This document shows, piece after piece, positions 1-27,771 of a stretch of DNA of 27,771 bases. Numbering within the stretch: the first letter of the stretch is position 1; each line of letters begins with the position of its first letter. This DNA is from a virus. A model generated the notes under the pieces. That model did no database searches. It was not told where the DNA came from and was given only the letters and a program-made list of their open reading frames with translations. Where the stretch lies: IMG/VR virus record IMGVR_UViG_3300035180_000436, positions 1 through 27,771 of that record. One strand, given 5' to 3'. The position numbers were made by a program, and so were the translations under genes.

Positions 1-300
1 GACTCCACTTTTATTTCAAACTCAATTGCTCTTTGTGGAGCTGATGGTGATGTTGATAAGTGGGGTATTAGTGATCCTGTTTGGGTTTATGATAACGAAC
101 CACGTAATCGAGAAATCCTATCAAGAATTTCCCGTGTTATCGAAATGGGACAAAAAGTTATTATCTGGCCTTCAACAATAAAAGAAAAGGACATTAATGA
201 TATGGTTTTATCTGGACTTGATGTTCAGTCTGTGATAGAATCAAACACTTACTCTGGTTTAGAAGCAAAACTTAAATTTACTACCTGGAAGAAAATATGA
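1..300 (+). CDS. DNA primase C-terminus (T4 gp61-like), 5'-truncated
   Basis: Open reading frame entering from the left edge in frame 1, giving 99 residues before TGA at 298-300. The visible part reads like the second half of a TOPRIM-type catalytic domain: a strand ending in VWVYDNEPRN, then KVIIWPSTIKEKDINDM, with acidic residues typical of metal binding. In T4-like cyanophages the primase gp61 gene commonly sits just upstream of nrdA, which supports the call; gp61 makes RNA primers for lagging-strand synthesis with helicase gp41. The stop codon overlaps the nrdA start (ATGA), so the two are probably translationally coupled. The N-terminus lies outside the window. The family assignment rests on a short fragment plus gene order, so another TOPRIM protein cannot be excluded. 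Confidence 0.65.
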   Translation, partial: DSTFISNSIALCGADGDVDKWGISDPVWVYDNEPRNREILSRISRVIEMGQKVIIWPSTIKEKDINDMVLSGLDVQSVIESNTYSGLEAKLKFTTWKKI

Positions 301-3092
301 GCAACGGAACAAAAGTAGTCAAGAGAAATGGTCTAATTGAATCTCTTGACCTAGATAAGATGCACTTGATGGTTGAAGAGGCATGTAAGGGTCTTGCAGG
401 TGTCTCTGCGAGTCAAGTTGAAATGACCTCTGGTATTCAATTCTATAGTGGAATATCCACTCAAGAAATACAAGAAATCCTTATTCGTAGTGCAAGTGAT
501 CTTATTGATCTAGACCATCCCAATTATCAATTTGTTGCTGCTCGTCTTCTATTATTTTCTGTTCGTAAGCAACTTTATGGGAAGATGAAAGAACTTCCTA
601 ATCTTGAGCAACACATTTATCAGTGTGTTAATCATGAAGTATATGATAGGGATATTTTTATCAAATATTCAAAAGAAGAAATTGAACGTGCTGATTCTTA
701 TATTGATCATGACCGAGACTATCTGTTCACTTATGCAGGTTTACGTCAAGTAGTTGATAAGTATTTGGTTCAGGATCGTAGTGGTGGTGGAGTATATGAA
801 ACACCACAATTCATGTATATGATGATTGCTCTGACTATCTTTGCAGAGTATTCAAAAGAAATCAGAATGTCATACGTCAAGAGGTATTATGACGCAATCT
901 CCAAACACAAAATCAACATTCCTACACCAATCATGGCAGGTGTTAGAACCCCACTTCGTCAATTTGCATCTTGTGTTCTTGTTGATGTTGACGACACCCT
1001 TGACAGCATCTTCAGTAGTGATATGGCAATTGGTAGGTATGTTTCTCAAAGAGCAGGAATTGGTATCAACGCAGGTCGCATCAGGGGCATCAATTCTAAA
1101 ATCAGAGGTGGAGAAGTTCAGCACACTGGCGTTGTTCCTTTCCTTAAAAAGTTTGAATCAACTGTACGATGCTGCACCCAAAATGGAATCCGTGGTGGAT
1201 CAGCTACAGTCCATTTTCCAATCTGGCACCAAGAAATAGAAGACATTCTGGTTCTGAAAAACAATAAAGGAACTGAGGATAATCGTGTTCGCAAACTTGA
1301 TTACTCAATTCAACTCAGCAAAATCTTTTATGAAAGGTTTATTCAAGATGGTGAGATTACTTTGTTCTCTCCGCATGATGTTCCTGGACTTTATGATGCT
1401 TTTGGAACTGATACTTTTGACCAATTGTATTTACGTTATGAGGAAGATAAGTATACTCCCAAAAAAACTATTAAAGCACAGGACCTTATTCTAACTCTTC
1501 TCAAAGAACGTGCTGAAACGGGTCGCATCTATATTATGAATATTGACCATTGTAACTCTCATAGTTCTTATAAGGACCAGATTACAATGTCAAACCTTTG
1601 TGTTGCTGGTGATACTAAGATTAAAGTTAGAATTACAACTAATATAGAAACCAAAGGAAATACTCGTCACACTACTAGACTTCCTCCACTTGATATTGAA
1701 ATTCAACAATTACAAGAACTCATTAAAGAAGGTCTTTCTTTGAATCTTGTGGAAGTTCTTTCTTATAATATTGATGAATCTCCGTCAAAGGCAGTTGATT
1801 TTAATAAAATTACTGCATTTGCTCAAACATCACCAAAAGCAAAAGTAATGAAAATTACTGATGAAGAAAGTGGTAAGAGTATTGTAGTTACACCAGAGCA
1901 CAAAGTATTCACAAAAAAACGTGGATATGTAATGGCAAAAGACCTAACCGAAACTGACGAATTGGTACTATCATCTAATAAAAAAACTTCTACTCTTATA
2001 ATGGAATACCTAGAAGAAGAAATCCCAGTTTATGATATTACTGTAGAAGGAACTCATAATTTCTTTGCAAATGATATTTTAGTTCATAATTGTCAAGAAA
2101 TTACAGAACCCACGACACCAATTCAACATATTGATGATGATGGTCCTCAAGAGATTGCGACTTGTATTCTATCAGCAATCAACGTTGGTAAGGTTAAATC
2201 TGATGAAGAACTTGAGGAACTTTGCAATCTTTCCATTCGTTCTTTAGAAGAACTTATTGACTATCAAAACTATCCTGTGAAGGCAGCAGAGAACTTTACC
2301 AAACGTCGTAGATCTCTTGGAATCGGTTATATTGGTCTTGCCCACTACCTTGCTAAACTAGGGTTCAACTACGACTCACAGGGGGCATGGGACGCCGTTC
2401 ACGGTCTTTCTGAGTCCTTCCAGTATTACCTTCTAAAAGTATCAAATCAGATTGCGAAAGAGAAGGGTCACTGTGAATACTTTGGTCGTACTAAGTATGC
2501 TGATGGTATTCTTCCTATTGATACATATAAAAAGGATGTCGATCAAGTTTCATCTGTAGGTCTTCAACATGATTGGGAAAGTCTTAGAGCATCTATCCTT
2601 GAACACGGTCTCAGGCACTCAACACTGTCCGCACAGATGCCTTCGGAGAGCAGTTCCGTTGTGTCAAATGCAACCAATGGAATTGAACCACCTCGTGGAT
2701 ACTTGTCCATTAAGAAGTCAAAGAAAGGTCCACTTAAGCAAATTGTACCCCAGTATCAATCACTTAAGAACAATTATACGCTTCTTTGGGATATGCCTAG
2801 CAATCGGGGTTATATTAATGTTGTTGCTGTTATGCAAAAGTTCTTTGATCAAGCAATTTCTGGAAACTGGTCGTATAACCCAGAAAATTATGCCGATAAT
2901 GAAGTTCCTGTTAGCGTAATGGCCCAAGATATGCTTACTTGTTTTAAGTTGGGGCATAAAACAGCATACTATCAAAACACTTATGATGTTAAGACTGATG
3001 AGGTAGTTGAAGAACAAAAACCCGAACTTCAATCTCTCCTAAATGATATTATGAGTTCTGATGAAGAATCGTGTGAAAGTTGCACTATTTAA
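297..3092 (+). CDS. nrdA: Ribonucleotide reductase class I large subunit with intein
   Basis: Reduces ribonucleoside diphosphates to deoxyribonucleotides together with NrdB. The 931-residue product is 767 residues after removal of the intein, close to the E. coli NrdA length (761). An ATP-cone-like allosteric region covers about residues 1-95 (KVVKRNGLIESLDL near the start). Catalytic features by alignment in memory to E. coli: C226 (C225), N433 (N437), C599 (thiyl-radical C439), E601 (E441), C623 (C462), and the redox tail C926-E-S-C929. The extein sequence MSNL-CQEI is split by an intein between L434 and C599. The ATG overlaps the primase stop; nrdB follows after 68 bp. Phages carry nrdA to supply dNTPs for replication. 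The reading frame is intact, so activity depends on splicing. Confidence 0.96.
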   Translation: MSNGTKVVKRNGLIESLDLDKMHLMVEEACKGLAGVSASQVEMTSGIQFYSGISTQEIQEILIRSASDLIDLDHPNYQFVAARLLLFSVRKQLYGKMKELPNLEQHIYQCVNHEVYDRDIFIKYSKEEIERADSYIDHDRDYLFTYAGLRQVVDKYLVQDRSGGGVYETPQFMYMMIALTIFAEYSKEIRMSYVKRYYDAISKHKINIPTPIMAGVRTPLRQFASCVLVDVDDTLDSIFSSDMAIGRYVSQRAGIGINAGRIRGINSKIRGGEVQHTGVVPFLKKFESTVRCCTQNGIRGGSATVHFPIWHQEIEDILVLKNNKGTEDNRVRKLDYSIQLSKIFYERFIQDGEITLFSPHDVPGLYDAFGTDTFDQLYLRYEEDKYTPKKTIKAQDLILTLLKERAETGRIYIMNIDHCNSHSSYKDQITMSNLCVAGDTKIKVRITTNIETKGNTRHTTRLPPLDIEIQQLQELIKEGLSLNLVEVLSYNIDESPSKAVDFNKITAFAQTSPKAKVMKITDEESGKSIVVTPEHKVFTKKRGYVMAKDLTETDELVLSSNKKTSTLIMEYLEEEIPVYDITVEGTHNFFANDILVHNCQEITEPTTPIQHIDDDGPQEIATCILSAINVGKVKSDEELEELCNLSIRSLEELIDYQNYPVKAAENFTKRRRSLGIGYIGLAHYLAKLGFNYDSQGAWDAVHGLSESFQYYLLKVSNQIAKEKGHCEYFGRTKYADGILPIDTYKKDVDQVSSVGLQHDWESLRASILEHGLRHSTLSAQMPSESSSVVSNATNGIEPPRGYLSIKKSKKGPLKQIVPQYQSLKNNYTLLWDMPSNRGYINVVAVMQKFFDQAISGNWSYNPENYADNEVPVSVMAQDMLTCFKLGHKTAYYQNTYDVKTDEVVEEQKPELQSLLNDIMSSDEESCESCTI
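1599..2090 (+). mobile_element. Mini-intein inside NrdA
   Basis: Residues 435-598 of the NrdA precursor (164 aa). Splicing motifs are visible: first residue Cys in CVAGDTKIKV (block A), the TPEHKVF motif with the block-B Thr and His, then VYDITVEGTHNFF (block F) and NDILVHN before the +1 Cys (block G with penultimate His and terminal Asn). This is a class 1 intein. There is no room for a homing endonuclease: the N- and C-terminal splicing parts are joined by a short linker around LSSNKKTST. The +1 extein nucleophile is C599, which is also the enzyme's radical cysteine, so unspliced protein should be inactive. From memory it resembles the environmental split NrdA-2 intein from ocean metagenomes, but here it is contiguous. 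Confidence 0.93.
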
Positions 3093-6600: not shown

Positions 6601-6673
6601 GGGTCAATAACTCAGATGGTAGAGTATCGGGCTTTTAACCTGCAAGTCGTGAGTTCGAGTCTCACTTGACCCA
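6601..6673 (+). tRNA. tRNA-Lys(TTT)
   Basis: Acceptor GGGTCAA/TTGACCC, D arm ACTC/GAGT, anticodon loop CTTTTAA giving TTT, T arm GTGAG-TTCGAGT-CTCAC, discriminator A6673. 73 nt; no encoded CCA, so the end must be added. It decodes AAA/AAG, frequent in this AT-rich genome. Confidence 0.95.
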
Positions 6674-6674
6674 C

Positions 6675-23126: not shown

Positions 23127-24596
23127 ATGAATTTTCTTAAAAAACTAATGCTCGTCCCTGTTGCTCTGGGACTTATTGCTCCTGCGGTGAATGCTGCAGA
23201 ACTCAATACTGAGGATGTCAATAAGTATGCCTCTGCTCAACAGGTCACAAGTATTACTCAATTCTCTGATGTCCGTCCTACGGATTGGGCATATCAGGCA
23301 CTGGAAAATCTAGTCCAACGTTATGGTTGTGTTGCTGGATATCCTAACGGCACCTTCGTTGGTGGTCAGGCAATGACCCGATATGAAGCAGCAGCACTGC
23401 TGAATGCTTGCCTGGATCGTGTGACTGAAACTACAGATGAACTTCAGCGTCTTCTTGCTGAATTCAAGACAGAACTTTCTGTTCTTACTGCTCGTGTAGA
23501 TGGTCTTGATGCAAAGGTTGGACAACTTGAGGCAACTCAATTCTCAACCACAACCAAACTCAAAGGTGAAGCAACCTTCGTTCTTGGTGGAGTTCCTGGT
23601 CTAGAAACAAATGATGGTGGAAACGTTGGCAACACCACATTTAACTATGATCTCCGTCTGAACTTTGATACTTCATTCACGGGTAAGGATTTGCTTCGTA
23701 CTCGTCTTCGTTCTGGTAACTTCAGTAGTGATCCTTTTGGTTCTAGTTCTTCTTTGTTCAAACTTGATAAAGCAGAATCTACAGATAACTCTGTAAATAT
23801 TGACCGTCTTTACTATCAGTTCCCCGTAAGTAAGAGTGTAACTCTTACTGCTGGTCCTCTGGTTCGTAACACTGAGATGGCTTGGGTTCCTTCTGCTTAT
23901 AAGTCGGAAATCCTTGACTTCTTTGCCGTTGCTGGTGCTCCTGGTGTCTATAACAAGGCAACTGGTGCTGGTGTCGGTGCTCAGTATGTCGGTAAAAACG
24001 GAATCGTTGCTGGTCTAAACTATGTTGCCCAAAACGGTGATGATAGTGAAACTGGTGTATTTGATTCTGATGGTGCCCTGAACTTCCTTGCTCAGGTCGG
24101 TTATCGTGCTCCTCAGTGGGGAGTTGCGGTTGGTTATCGTTATGGTTCTGAAGGCACCCGTCCTCGCACTTACAACGGTCTCCTGGGTGCCTCTGGTGCT
24201 CTTGTAGATGGTCAAGAGTCTAACAGTGTTGCTGTGAATGCTTACTGGCAACCTGCTCAATCTGGTTGGGTTCCTTCCGTCAGTGCTGGTTATAGTTATA
24301 ATGGTGTGAGTGGTGCTACTGGTGCTACCGATGCTACGGACTCTGATTCGTGGTTCGTTGGTCTTCAGTGGAATGATGCTTTTGTTGCTGGTAATGCCGC
24401 TGGTATTGCCGTCGGACAAGCACCTTCTGCAGAAACTGCTGGTGTAAGTGATGCTACGATGCTTGAGTTCTTCTATAAGTTCCAAGTCACCGATAACATC
24501 AGCATTACTCCTGCACTATTTTATGTTGATAGGAATCAACGTTATCAGGATAGCAGCAAGTGGGGTGGTGTAATCCAAACCAAGTTCACCTTCTGA
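23127..24596 (+). CDS. Cyanobacterial-type outer-membrane porin (Som/OprB)
   Basis: A 489-residue protein with the complete design of cyanobacterial Som porins. Signal peptide about 1-23 (MNFLKKLMLVPVALGLIAPA, cut near NAA); SLH-like domain about 46-98 (FSDVRPTDWAYQALENLV, VAGYPNGTFVGGQAMTRYEA); coiled coil about 100-137 (ELSVLTARVDGLDAKVGQLE) spanning the periplasm; then a long beta-barrel of alternating residues ending in TKFTF with a terminal Phe as in outer-membrane proteins. In cyanobacteria these porins bind peptidoglycan via SLH and let small solutes pass, including inorganic ions. Being next to pstS suggests phosphate entry; alternatives are iron or sugar passage. A terminator follows at 24621. 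It is surprisingly complete for a phage gene, so it is likely acquired from the host. Confidence 0.88.
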   Translation: MNFLKKLMLVPVALGLIAPAVNAAELNTEDVNKYASAQQVTSITQFSDVRPTDWAYQALENLVQRYGCVAGYPNGTFVGGQAMTRYEAAALLNACLDRVTETTDELQRLLAEFKTELSVLTARVDGLDAKVGQLEATQFSTTTKLKGEATFVLGGVPGLETNDGGNVGNTTFNYDLRLNFDTSFTGKDLLRTRLRSGNFSSDPFGSSSSLFKLDKAESTDNSVNIDRLYYQFPVSKSVTLTAGPLVRNTEMAWVPSAYKSEILDFFAVAGAPGVYNKATGAGVGAQYVGKNGIVAGLNYVAQNGDDSETGVFDSDGALNFLAQVGYRAPQWGVAVGYRYGSEGTRPRTYNGLLGASGALVDGQESNSVAVNAYWQPAQSGWVPSVSAGYSYNGVSGATGATDATDSDSWFVGLQWNDAFVAGNAAGIAVGQAPSAETAGVSDATMLEFFYKFQVTDNISITPALFYVDRNQRYQDSSKWGGVIQTKFTF

Positions 24597-24717: not shown

Positions 24718-25692
24718 ATGAAACTCAAAAATCTTATTGCTGTTGGTCTGGTTGCTGCTCCTGTTGCTGCAATTGCTGGACCAACCCTGAATGGAGCAGG
24801 TGCTACCTTCCCTGCACCCATTTATCAACGCTGGTTCCAAGATTATGCTACTGCAACTGGTAATCGTGTGAATTACCAAAGTGTCGGGAGTGGGGCTGGT
24901 GTCCGTCAGTATGTCGCAGGAACTGTCGATTTCGGTGCAACTGATGAACCTATCTCGTCAAAAGAGGCAAGTAAAGTAAAGCGTGGTGTCGTCCAAATTC
25001 CTATGGTAGGTGGAACGATTGCCGTTGCCTATAACAAACCTGGATGTACTCTGAAACTCACTCAGAAGCAGGTTGCAGACATTTTCCTAGGAACTATTAA
25101 GGATTGGAAGCAACTTGGTTGTGCTGCTGGTCCAGTTCGTGTTGCACACCGTTCTGATGGTTCTGGAACCACCTTTGCATTTACTAACTCACTTTCTGCA
25201 TTCTCTCCTGAATGGAAGAGTAAAGTTGGTGAAGGTAAGTCTGTTAAGTGGCCTGTTGGTATTGGTGGTAAAGGTAACGAAGGTGTTTCTGGTACTGTTA
25301 AGACCACACCTGGTTCTATTGGTTATGTAAATACTGGATTTGTAAAAGCAAATAAACTTCAGGCAGCAGCAGTTCAAAATAAGGCAGGGCAATTTGTTCT
25401 TCCTACCGCTAAATCTGGTGCTATTGCTTTGAATAGTATTACTCTTGATGGTAACCTTGCTGGAGAAAATCCCAATCCTTCTGCCTCTGGCGCTTATCCT
25501 ATTTCCACTCTGACTTGGGTTCTTGCCTATAAGACTGGAAATGGTGCTAGGAAAGCAAGTGATATTCAACAGGCACTCAATTATGCTCTGAGTTCTAAGG
25601 CACAATTGCTTGCTGATGACTTGGGTTATGTTCCTCTTGCTGGTAGTATTCTTAACAAATCAAGGATTGCTGTAAAGCGGATTGGTCAGTAA
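24718..25692 (+). CDS. pstS: Phosphate-binding protein PstS
   Basis: A 324-residue periplasmic substrate-binding protein of the phosphate ABC transporter. Signal peptide about 1-21 (MKLKNLIAVGLVAAPVAAIA); phosphate-site motifs GAGATFPAPIYQRWF, SVGSGAGVRQY, DFGATDEPIS and HRSDGSGTTFAFTN, as in the cyanobacterial and E. coli proteins. It feeds phosphate to host PstCAB. Cyanophages often carry pstS, raising uptake under phosphorus stress in infected cells. Pho-box-like repeats lie upstream and a phage porin gene just before it. It has no obvious ribosome-binding site and no terminator before the hli promoter. Mature length is typical. Confidence 0.97.
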   Translation: MKLKNLIAVGLVAAPVAAIAGPTLNGAGATFPAPIYQRWFQDYATATGNRVNYQSVGSGAGVRQYVAGTVDFGATDEPISSKEASKVKRGVVQIPMVGGTIAVAYNKPGCTLKLTQKQVADIFLGTIKDWKQLGCAAGPVRVAHRSDGSGTTFAFTNSLSAFSPEWKSKVGEGKSVKWPVGIGGKGNEGVSGTVKTTPGSIGYVNTGFVKANKLQAAAVQNKAGQFVLPTAKSGAIALNSITLDGNLAGENPNPSASGAYPISTLTWVLAYKTGNGARKASDIQQALNYALSSKAQLLADDLGYVPLAGSILNKSRIAVKRIGQ

Positions 25693-26518: not shown

Positions 26519-27229
26519 ATGATGAGAATAGATCTTCACAACTTTTTTCAATTTTACGACCCAAAGAACCCAAAACACGTTGCTGCAGTAGAGCAATTTG
26601 AGGTAGATTTGGTAAGTAAATCTCCAGATCTGATGGAGGATACTACTAATTGGGTAAAGATTTTTAGAACAAAAGTAGAAGCACCAAAACCTTTAAATAA
26701 TCTACTTAATGTTCCTTACTACCCACAAACCGATAATTATGCTCAACCAGATAGGACTTGTAATTCCTCTGCTTGTGCTATGTGTCTTGAGTTTCTTAAA
26801 CCAGGAACTTTAGTTGGAGCAAAGGGTGATGATGCATATCTTAAAAAAGTTATTGCAGTTGGCGACACAACTGACCACTCAGTTCAGACCAAAGTTCTTG
26901 CTTCTTATGGAATTAAGTCTGAGTTTAGGTATAATCTTGGGTTTGCTGACCTTGATCGTGAGTTGTCTGCTGGGAGACCCGTTGTTATTGGCATACTCCA
27001 TCGTGGTACTTTATCTGCTCCTACTGGTGGACACATGTTGTGTGTAATAGGTAAGACACCATCGGGAGATTATGTTGTGAATGACCCATACGGATCTTTG
27101 AATGATGGTTATTCTGGTCCAGTCACGAATGGTAAAGGTGCTGTATATAAGAGAAGTGATCTTTCTCGTCGTTGGTGTCCTAATGACAATGATGGTTGGG
27201 GTCGTATTTTTGAACCGGTAAAAAAGTAG
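26519..27229 (+). CDS. C39-type cysteine peptidase
   Basis: A 236-residue protein starting MMRIDLHNFFQFYD (ATG 26519 or 26522). The peptidase C39_2-like domain covers about residues 63-232: YYPQTDNY, CNSSACAMCLEF with catalytic C81, GGHMLCVIG with H172 and VVNDPYG with D189, forming a Cys-His-Asp triad. In phages such domains may cut peptidoglycan cross-links or leader peptides; together with the GH19-like domain in the next frame a cell-wall role is likely. The last three codons GTA AAA AAG before the stop TAG contain a slippery heptamer, so a fraction may be made as a longer fusion. An AATAAATA late motif lies upstream. Confidence 0.82.
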   Translation: MMRIDLHNFFQFYDPKNPKHVAAVEQFEVDLVSKSPDLMEDTTNWVKIFRTKVEAPKPLNNLLNVPYYPQTDNYAQPDRTCNSSACAMCLEFLKPGTLVGAKGDDAYLKKVIAVGDTTDHSVQTKVLASYGIKSEFRYNLGFADLDRELSAGRPVVIGILHRGTLSAPTGGHMLCVIGKTPSGDYVVNDPYGSLNDGYSGPVTNGKGAVYKRSDLSRRWCPNDNDGWGRIFEPVKK

Positions 27230-27256
27230 AAGAGGCATCATTCCAAACTGGTGCCT
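27220..27256 (+). promoter_or_regulatory. Putative -1 programmed frameshift signal
   Basis: Slippery heptamer A AAA AAG (27220-27226) in the peptidase frame, directly before TAG; 6-nt spacer; then a stem AGGCA (27233-27237) and CCA (27243-27245) pairing with TGG (27249-27251) and TGCCT (27252-27256), with a 5-nt bulge. A -1 slip leads to GTA GAA GAG and joins the GH19-like frame. Same heptamer as E. coli dnaX. Confidence 0.6.
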
Positions 27257-27771
27257 TAATTACAAAAAAACAACTTGCTCATATTTGGAATTGTAATGAA
27301 AGTTTAATTAAAGACCAGGAACTTATAGAACTGTATAAATGTTTGGAAACTTTTGATATTATAACTCAACCAAGATTGAGACACTTTATTTCACAGTGTT
27401 CTCATGAGAGTAATGGTGGTCGTTGGATGAAAGAGATTGCTTCTGGAAATGATTATGAAGGAAGAACGGATCTGGGAAATACTCAAAATGGTGATGGTCC
27501 TAGGTATAAAGGTGCTGGATTTATTCAGGTAACTGGAAGATACAATTATCAACAATTTGCAAACTACATTAAAGACCCTAAGGTAATGAATGGTGTTGAT
27601 TATGTCTCTCAAACCTACCCATTCACTGTTTCTGGATATTGGTGGATGGTGAATAAGATGAATGAGTTGTGTGATAAAGGAGCAACTTGTCGTCAGGTAT
27701 CTGCAAGAGTAAATGGTAGAGACCCTGCAAATGGACTTGCCGACCGTGAGAAGTATTATAAGAGATGTATT
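27226..27771 (+). CDS. GH19-type lytic domain in -1 frame, 3'-truncated
   Basis: An open frame running off the right edge, 182 residues after the shift site. It contains ALITKKQLAHIW, RLRHFISQCSHESNGGRW with the candidate catalytic Glu (E in SHES), RYKGAGFIQVTGRYNY, GYWWMVNKMNELCDKG and VSARVNGRDPANGLADREKY, the layout of GH19 chitinase/endolysin domains that cut glycan strands of peptidoglycan or chitin. The frame is open from 27214, but no ATG, GTG or TTG occurs before about 27340, well inside the domain, so separate initiation would give an incomplete domain. Most likely it is produced by -1 frameshifting from the C39 gene. The alternative is an indel in the A-tract. Confidence 0.8.

Follow-up and report, generated by a model that had tools for sequence, protein, structure and literature searches.

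The window, by which we mean the whole stretch of DNA analysed, is an IMG/VR record in its entirety, 27,771 bases long. Towards its end lies a gene for a C39-type peptidase whose last codons are GTA AAA AAG TAG, exactly as an earlier, sequence-only reading of this DNA had described, and a second lytic domain follows in the −1 frame (Table 1). The −1 frame is open from position 27214 to the contig end. Its first ATG, GTG or TTG is a TTG at 27343, which bears out the claim that the second domain lacks an early start. A −1 slip would produce the trans-frame sequence ...VKK-VEEASFQTG... and a fusion of 236 + 182 residues, and the proposed size of at least 418 residues is thus confirmed. The second domain had also been called GH19-like, and this assignment agrees with matches to PHROG endolysins and to Pfam Glyco_hydro_19 (PF00182; E 4e-4, a match below the model cut-off).

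Table 1. Features of the lysin junction and a related tRNA gene in the window
Feature	Position	Strand	Remark
C39-type peptidase ORF, 236 aa, PF13529	26519..27229	+	0-frame (short) product
Slippery heptamer A AAA AAG	27220..27226	+	In 0-frame phase for a −1 slip
0-frame stop codon TAG	27227..27229	+	Immediately 3′ of the heptamer
Downstream hairpin, 9 bp	27232..27257	+	5 nt past the heptamer; counterparts in 59/59 relatives
−1 frame: linker VEEASFQTG and GH19 lytic domain	27226..27771	+	Contig end cuts the domain
Phage tRNA-Lys (UUU)	6601..6674	+	Possible accessory, inferred

A stem-loop does follow the heptamer, as had been predicted, but it is continuous rather than bulged, and the spacer is 5 nt rather than 6 nt. 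Positions 27232–27240 pair with 27249–27257 to form an unbroken stem of 9 bp, two of them G-U, closed by an 8-nt loop, with a folding energy of −12.5 kcal/mol (z −3.35 against dinucleotide shuffles).

Elsewhere in the window there is a ribonucleotide reductase alpha ORF with an intein-like insert (297–3092; CVAGDT...VHNC), a cyanobacterial-type porin (23127–24596; 62% to a Cyanobium MAG) and a PstS-like phosphate-binding protein (24718–25692). The host-like porin and PstS-like genes indicate a Cyanobium/Synechococcus host. Cyanobium usitatum, whose porin is 56% identical to the window's, is likely a relative of the host.

Relatives of the junction

Approximately 300 loci were gathered using three queries: the C39 half, the S-PM2 lysozyme and the ACG-2014f fusion. 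To enter the junction set, a sequence had to have its second domain in a −1 frame that runs open through the C39 stop, and no start codon could overlap this stop. It comprises 66 distinct junctions, of which 59 have A AAA AAG (the type-I junctions), two T TTT TTT (S-CAM7), two G GGA AAG and one C CCA AAG. Because the 59 were selected on A AAA AAG itself, the informative count is 64 slippery junctions among 66. The sequence-only reading had looked to relatives for A AAA AAG, spacer and stem with both frames open, and on this point the outcome is strongly positive, sequenced isolates included. The remaining two of the 66, L148 and L150, are ordinary separate genes, each with its own ATG and a Shine-Dalgarno (SD) sequence.

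The isolates illustrate how the arrangement has been annotated. In S-PM2 (NC_006820; deletion mutant LN828717) the junction reads GCA AAA AAG TAA and is followed by an 11-bp stem and a GH24 domain in the −1 frame; the annotation of the lysin, however, begins at an internal start lying 270 nt further on (L088, 2466–2684). The lysin annotations of the S-CAM7 isolates (L092, L178), which carry T TTT TTT, are likewise truncated. The annotated lysins of both phages are without the catalytic N-terminal part, and the genes as annotated would therefore fail on expression. PHROG 10457 (95 positions) might consist of annotation stumps of this kind.

The second enzyme is usually a GH24 phage lysozyme (PF00959), with GH19 found in the window and in L004, a 159-kb contig. 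L004 has the same A6 tract, TAG, spacer and stem, and is 83% identical to the window in GH19 and 65% in C39. GH19 is a domain swap replacing GH24. Two further sequences (L005/L006), with a GH19 domain 81% identical, have A7 and one continuous ORF, and keep the stem, while GH19 relatives at 60–64% identity (L262–L271) are separate genes. The idea of a conserved GH19 family was dropped, as the A6 form is limited to the window and L004; the basis of the GH19 version is two A6 contigs.

The −1 frame is under purifying selection. Its dN/dS is 0.14 for the window versus L004, with a median of 0.175 across 172 pairs, and the low values (0.14–0.18) extend to its first 60 codons. The GH24 catalytic motif is present in 57/57 sequences, and in the type-I relatives the C39 catalytic residues are found in 59/59 (Cys), 58/59 (His) and 57/59 (Asp).

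Two observations concern lysin modules more generally. An N-terminal 'NFFKYYD' module is common to C39, GH19 and GH24 lysins (L095, which is S-B68, and L160), and may be a shared wall-binding or targeting part. In L133/L124, a short HNFFKFYD module with a zinc-ribbon-like tail (CPHCGKS) ends in G GGA AAG TAA, and GH24 lies in the −1 frame past a GC-rich hairpin; these two are ambiguous because an ATG is located at the domain start.

Heptamer and hairpin

In the type-I junctions, A AAA AAG adjoins the stop in 54 of 59 cases and lies one codon earlier in 5. The codon preceding AAA AAG is GTA, GCA, ACA or GAA (Val, Ala, Thr or Glu) and ends in A in all 59, unlike codons near the heptamer, whose third positions are variable. 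Given the genes' own codon usage, A AAA AAG would be expected for a gene end of V/A/E/T-Lys-Lys with a frequency of about 8% per gene. The observation exceeds chance: not one of the 448 other genes of 150 aa or longer in these loci has an A6R heptamer at its stop (the sole raw match, in L004, is the same gene) or shows the combination of features. The −1 frame opens merely 10–13 nt ahead of the stop in 51/59, right over the heptamer. In the window and in 64 relatives, the overlap of the frames contains an X XXY YYZ heptamer that is correctly phased. The top three −1 motifs by measured efficiency in E. coli are A AAA AAG, G GGA AAG and C CCA AAG (PMC4066793).

Stimulators of −1 frameshifting are usually located 5–8 nt downstream of the slip site (PMC4066793). 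The stem of the window begins at 5 nt, and an uninterrupted helix of 7–17 bp begins 3–8 nt past the heptamer in 59/59 junctions. The 55-nt downstream stretch has a mean z of −3.6 (51 junctions), compared with −0.4 and −0.8 in relatives with overlapping starts, from which the hairpin is mostly absent, although a few exceptions keep the stem (e.g., L019, L024). The stem arms are clade-specific (TCAACACCACA, GCCAACTAA, CTCTACT, GAGGCACCA and others), and pairing of arms from their own clade gives −17.0 kcal/mol versus −9.2 kcal/mol with arms swapped between clades. In the main clade (17 sequences), 98.7% of cells pair and three pairs are changed on both sides, i.e., are compensatory.

Interpretation and alternatives

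We consider, with a probability of about 0.93, that the junction is a −1 programmed ribosomal frameshift site giving peptidase alone and a peptidase-glycosidase fusion. A ribosome translating the C39 gene would meet A AAA AAG while the hairpin sits at the mRNA entrance. A fraction of ribosomes would move back by one base as tRNA-Lys(UUU) re-pairs on AAA AAA and would then read into the second lytic domain, and the others would terminate at TAG. The outcome would be a peptidase of 236 residues together with a fusion of 418 residues or more. Slipperiness has been tied to a sole tRNA-Lys reading AAG (PMC5009743), and C. usitatum has a single tRNA-Lys, with anticodon UUU, among its 41 tRNAs (full tRNA list, one genome). 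The tRNA-Lys (UUU) of the phage, which would decode the AAA as well as the AAG codon of the slip site, is a possible accessory. From the sequence pattern we infer the slippage itself, its efficiency and the purpose of both products, including a fixed product ratio as the point of the arrangement.

There are other ways in which the second enzyme might be made. It could be initiated independently, through termination-reinitiation at the stop or from a non-AUG start such as AUU. In favour of this are the relatives with an ATG, GTG or TTG overlapping the stop, which presumably use coupling; in addition, one clade (16/59) has an AGGAG-like element after the stop and ahead of the domain, so that AUU initiation there is conceivable. 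In 48/59 junctions, however, including the window and S-PM2, ATG, GTG and TTG are absent between the opening of the −1 frame and the domain. Under independent initiation the heptamer and hairpin would also be functionless; where a start does overlap, they are either missing or much reduced. We regard this explanation as very unlikely.

Alternatively, RNA polymerase could slip on the A tract to give mixed A6 and A7 mRNAs. Genes that use transcriptional slippage usually have a homopolymer of about 8–9 or more, and a run of six A residues is short. Slippage of this kind is impossible on G GGA AAG and C CCA AAG, and the final G of the heptamer is retained in 59/59 junctions. Moreover, the conserved hairpin is downstream and is still untranscribed as RNA polymerase crosses the tract. 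The non-homopolymer heptamers and the downstream hairpin thus favour the ribosome over RNA polymerase. On the other side, A6 and A7 alleles interconvert on the tree, where A7 appears in three distinct parts, and slippage of RNA polymerase is the mechanism of Thermus dnaX (PMC5009743); we nevertheless give this possibility only a few chances in a hundred.

It might also be supposed that an indel in the A tract arose in sequencing or assembly and that the true gene is one continuous A7 ORF, which is the state of L005/L006. This is highly improbable for the window, where the independent contig L004 has A6 in the GH19 version, and for the family it is already refuted. Fifty-nine distinct junctions drawn from many metagenomes have A6, as does S-PM2, which was sequenced twice, and heptamers other than homopolymers occupy the same position. 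The presence of the feature in the isolates S-PM2 and S-CAM7 shows that it is not a sequencing or assembly error. Least probable of all is decay of the second ORF to an unexpressed remnant: although the S-PM2 and S-CAM7 annotations leave a stump, this is already contradicted by the substitution pattern along the −1 frame, its first 60 codons included, and the GH24 catalytic motif is present in 57/57.

On the C39 tree, state switches are frequent. There are 30 sequences with an overlapping ATG, GTG or TTG and 12 plain fusions, and A7 fusions occur at three separate places (L005/L006, L197–L201). Some of the outcomes that the sequence-only reading had named as counting against frameshifting are therefore found (A7 in L005/L006, plain fusions and overlapping ATG/GTG starts), with the family pattern elsewhere intact. 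These are alternative states dispersed across the family tree. The slip site of S-CAM7 looks re-evolved, because S-CAM7 is placed among fused relatives. The plain fusions, the A7 fusions and the overlapping-start pairs lack the signal, which implies that not every phage needs both products.

Nine fused sequences (ACG-2014f group; L102/L202) keep A AAA AAG and have a −1 stop one codon on, and in ACG-2014f a hairpin lies 5–6 nt downstream of the heptamer. In the in-frame C39-GH24 fusions L087, L179–L182, L301–L304 (ACG-2014f group), L102 and L202, A AAA AAG is followed by TCT GA or CCT GA. A −1 slip in the nine sequences would yield a short protein, with a polarity opposite to that of the window. 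Two polarity classes are consequently distinguished: (i) short by default and long by shift (the 59 type-I junctions, S-PM2 and the window); and (ii) long by default and short by shift (the nine fused sequences, including ACG-2014f; separately L102/L202). It is possible, though we hold this only tentatively and think it somewhat less probable than its converse, that selection in the family acts to keep two lysin products at a set ratio as a means of tuning lysis, with the signal switching polarity. The natural variants (slip site, fused, overlapping start and swapped polarity) allow the need for a product ratio to be tested.

Comparison with known systems

The heptamer at the window junction is, as had been pointed out, the one used by E. 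coli dnaX. The two systems are also alike in the close downstream hairpin and in the single tRNA-Lys(UUU), which was found in the one host relative checked, and in the nine fused sequences the shift would lead to a short protein, as it does in dnaX. In the window and the 59 type-I relatives, by contrast, the shift would lead to a long protein, and the gene is a phage lysis gene. A further difference is the upstream SD-like stimulator, which is present in dnaX and IS911 but is not universal among −1 sites: a dnaX-like SD upstream of the heptamer is found in 6/59 junctions versus 13% of control windows, and is not enriched.

The lambda G/GT tail chaperones and OrfAB of the IS3 family resemble the cyanophage junction in that a −1 shift adds a C-terminal extension to a short 0-frame product; however, the cyanophage junction joins two wall-degrading enzymes and involves neither a tail gene nor a transposase. 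Two related products per lysin gene are also made by the endolysins CTP1L, Ms6 LysA and LysIME-EF1 (PMC4777826, PMC3111421, PMC7098653). Those depend on in-frame internal starts with SD sequences, whereas the second domain of the window is in the other frame and startless, and no in-frame internal start with an SD serves it. Gordonia phages have a split lysin A in which the same two activities, C39 and glycosyl hydrolase, are adjacent, but these are two annotated genes with an ordinary start overlapping the preceding stop; they were accordingly rejected as examples of the same arrangement.

The PRFect paper lists lysins among known frameshift genes, citing a Lactococcus phage lysin with overlapping ORFs (PMC10885494). 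That case (1994) concerns a different host and a different lysin, and may count as a precedent for lysin frameshifting. No earlier report of a cyanophage lysin frameshift was found in the open-licence literature. Given the cited precedent, and because the literature covered consists of open-licence papers, we keep our claim to a known mechanism in an unexpected gene.

The signal is apparently strongly conserved yet overlooked in many viruses of cyanobacteria, and ribosomal frameshifting appears to be how a widespread cyanophage group, to which the model phage S-PM2 belongs, produces its main lytic enzyme. If true, a dosage-controlled two-enzyme lysin produced by frameshifting would be a new principle in the control of phage lysis. 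Compared with the systems above, what is known is −1 programmed frameshifting, and what is unexpected is the gene in which it would occur.
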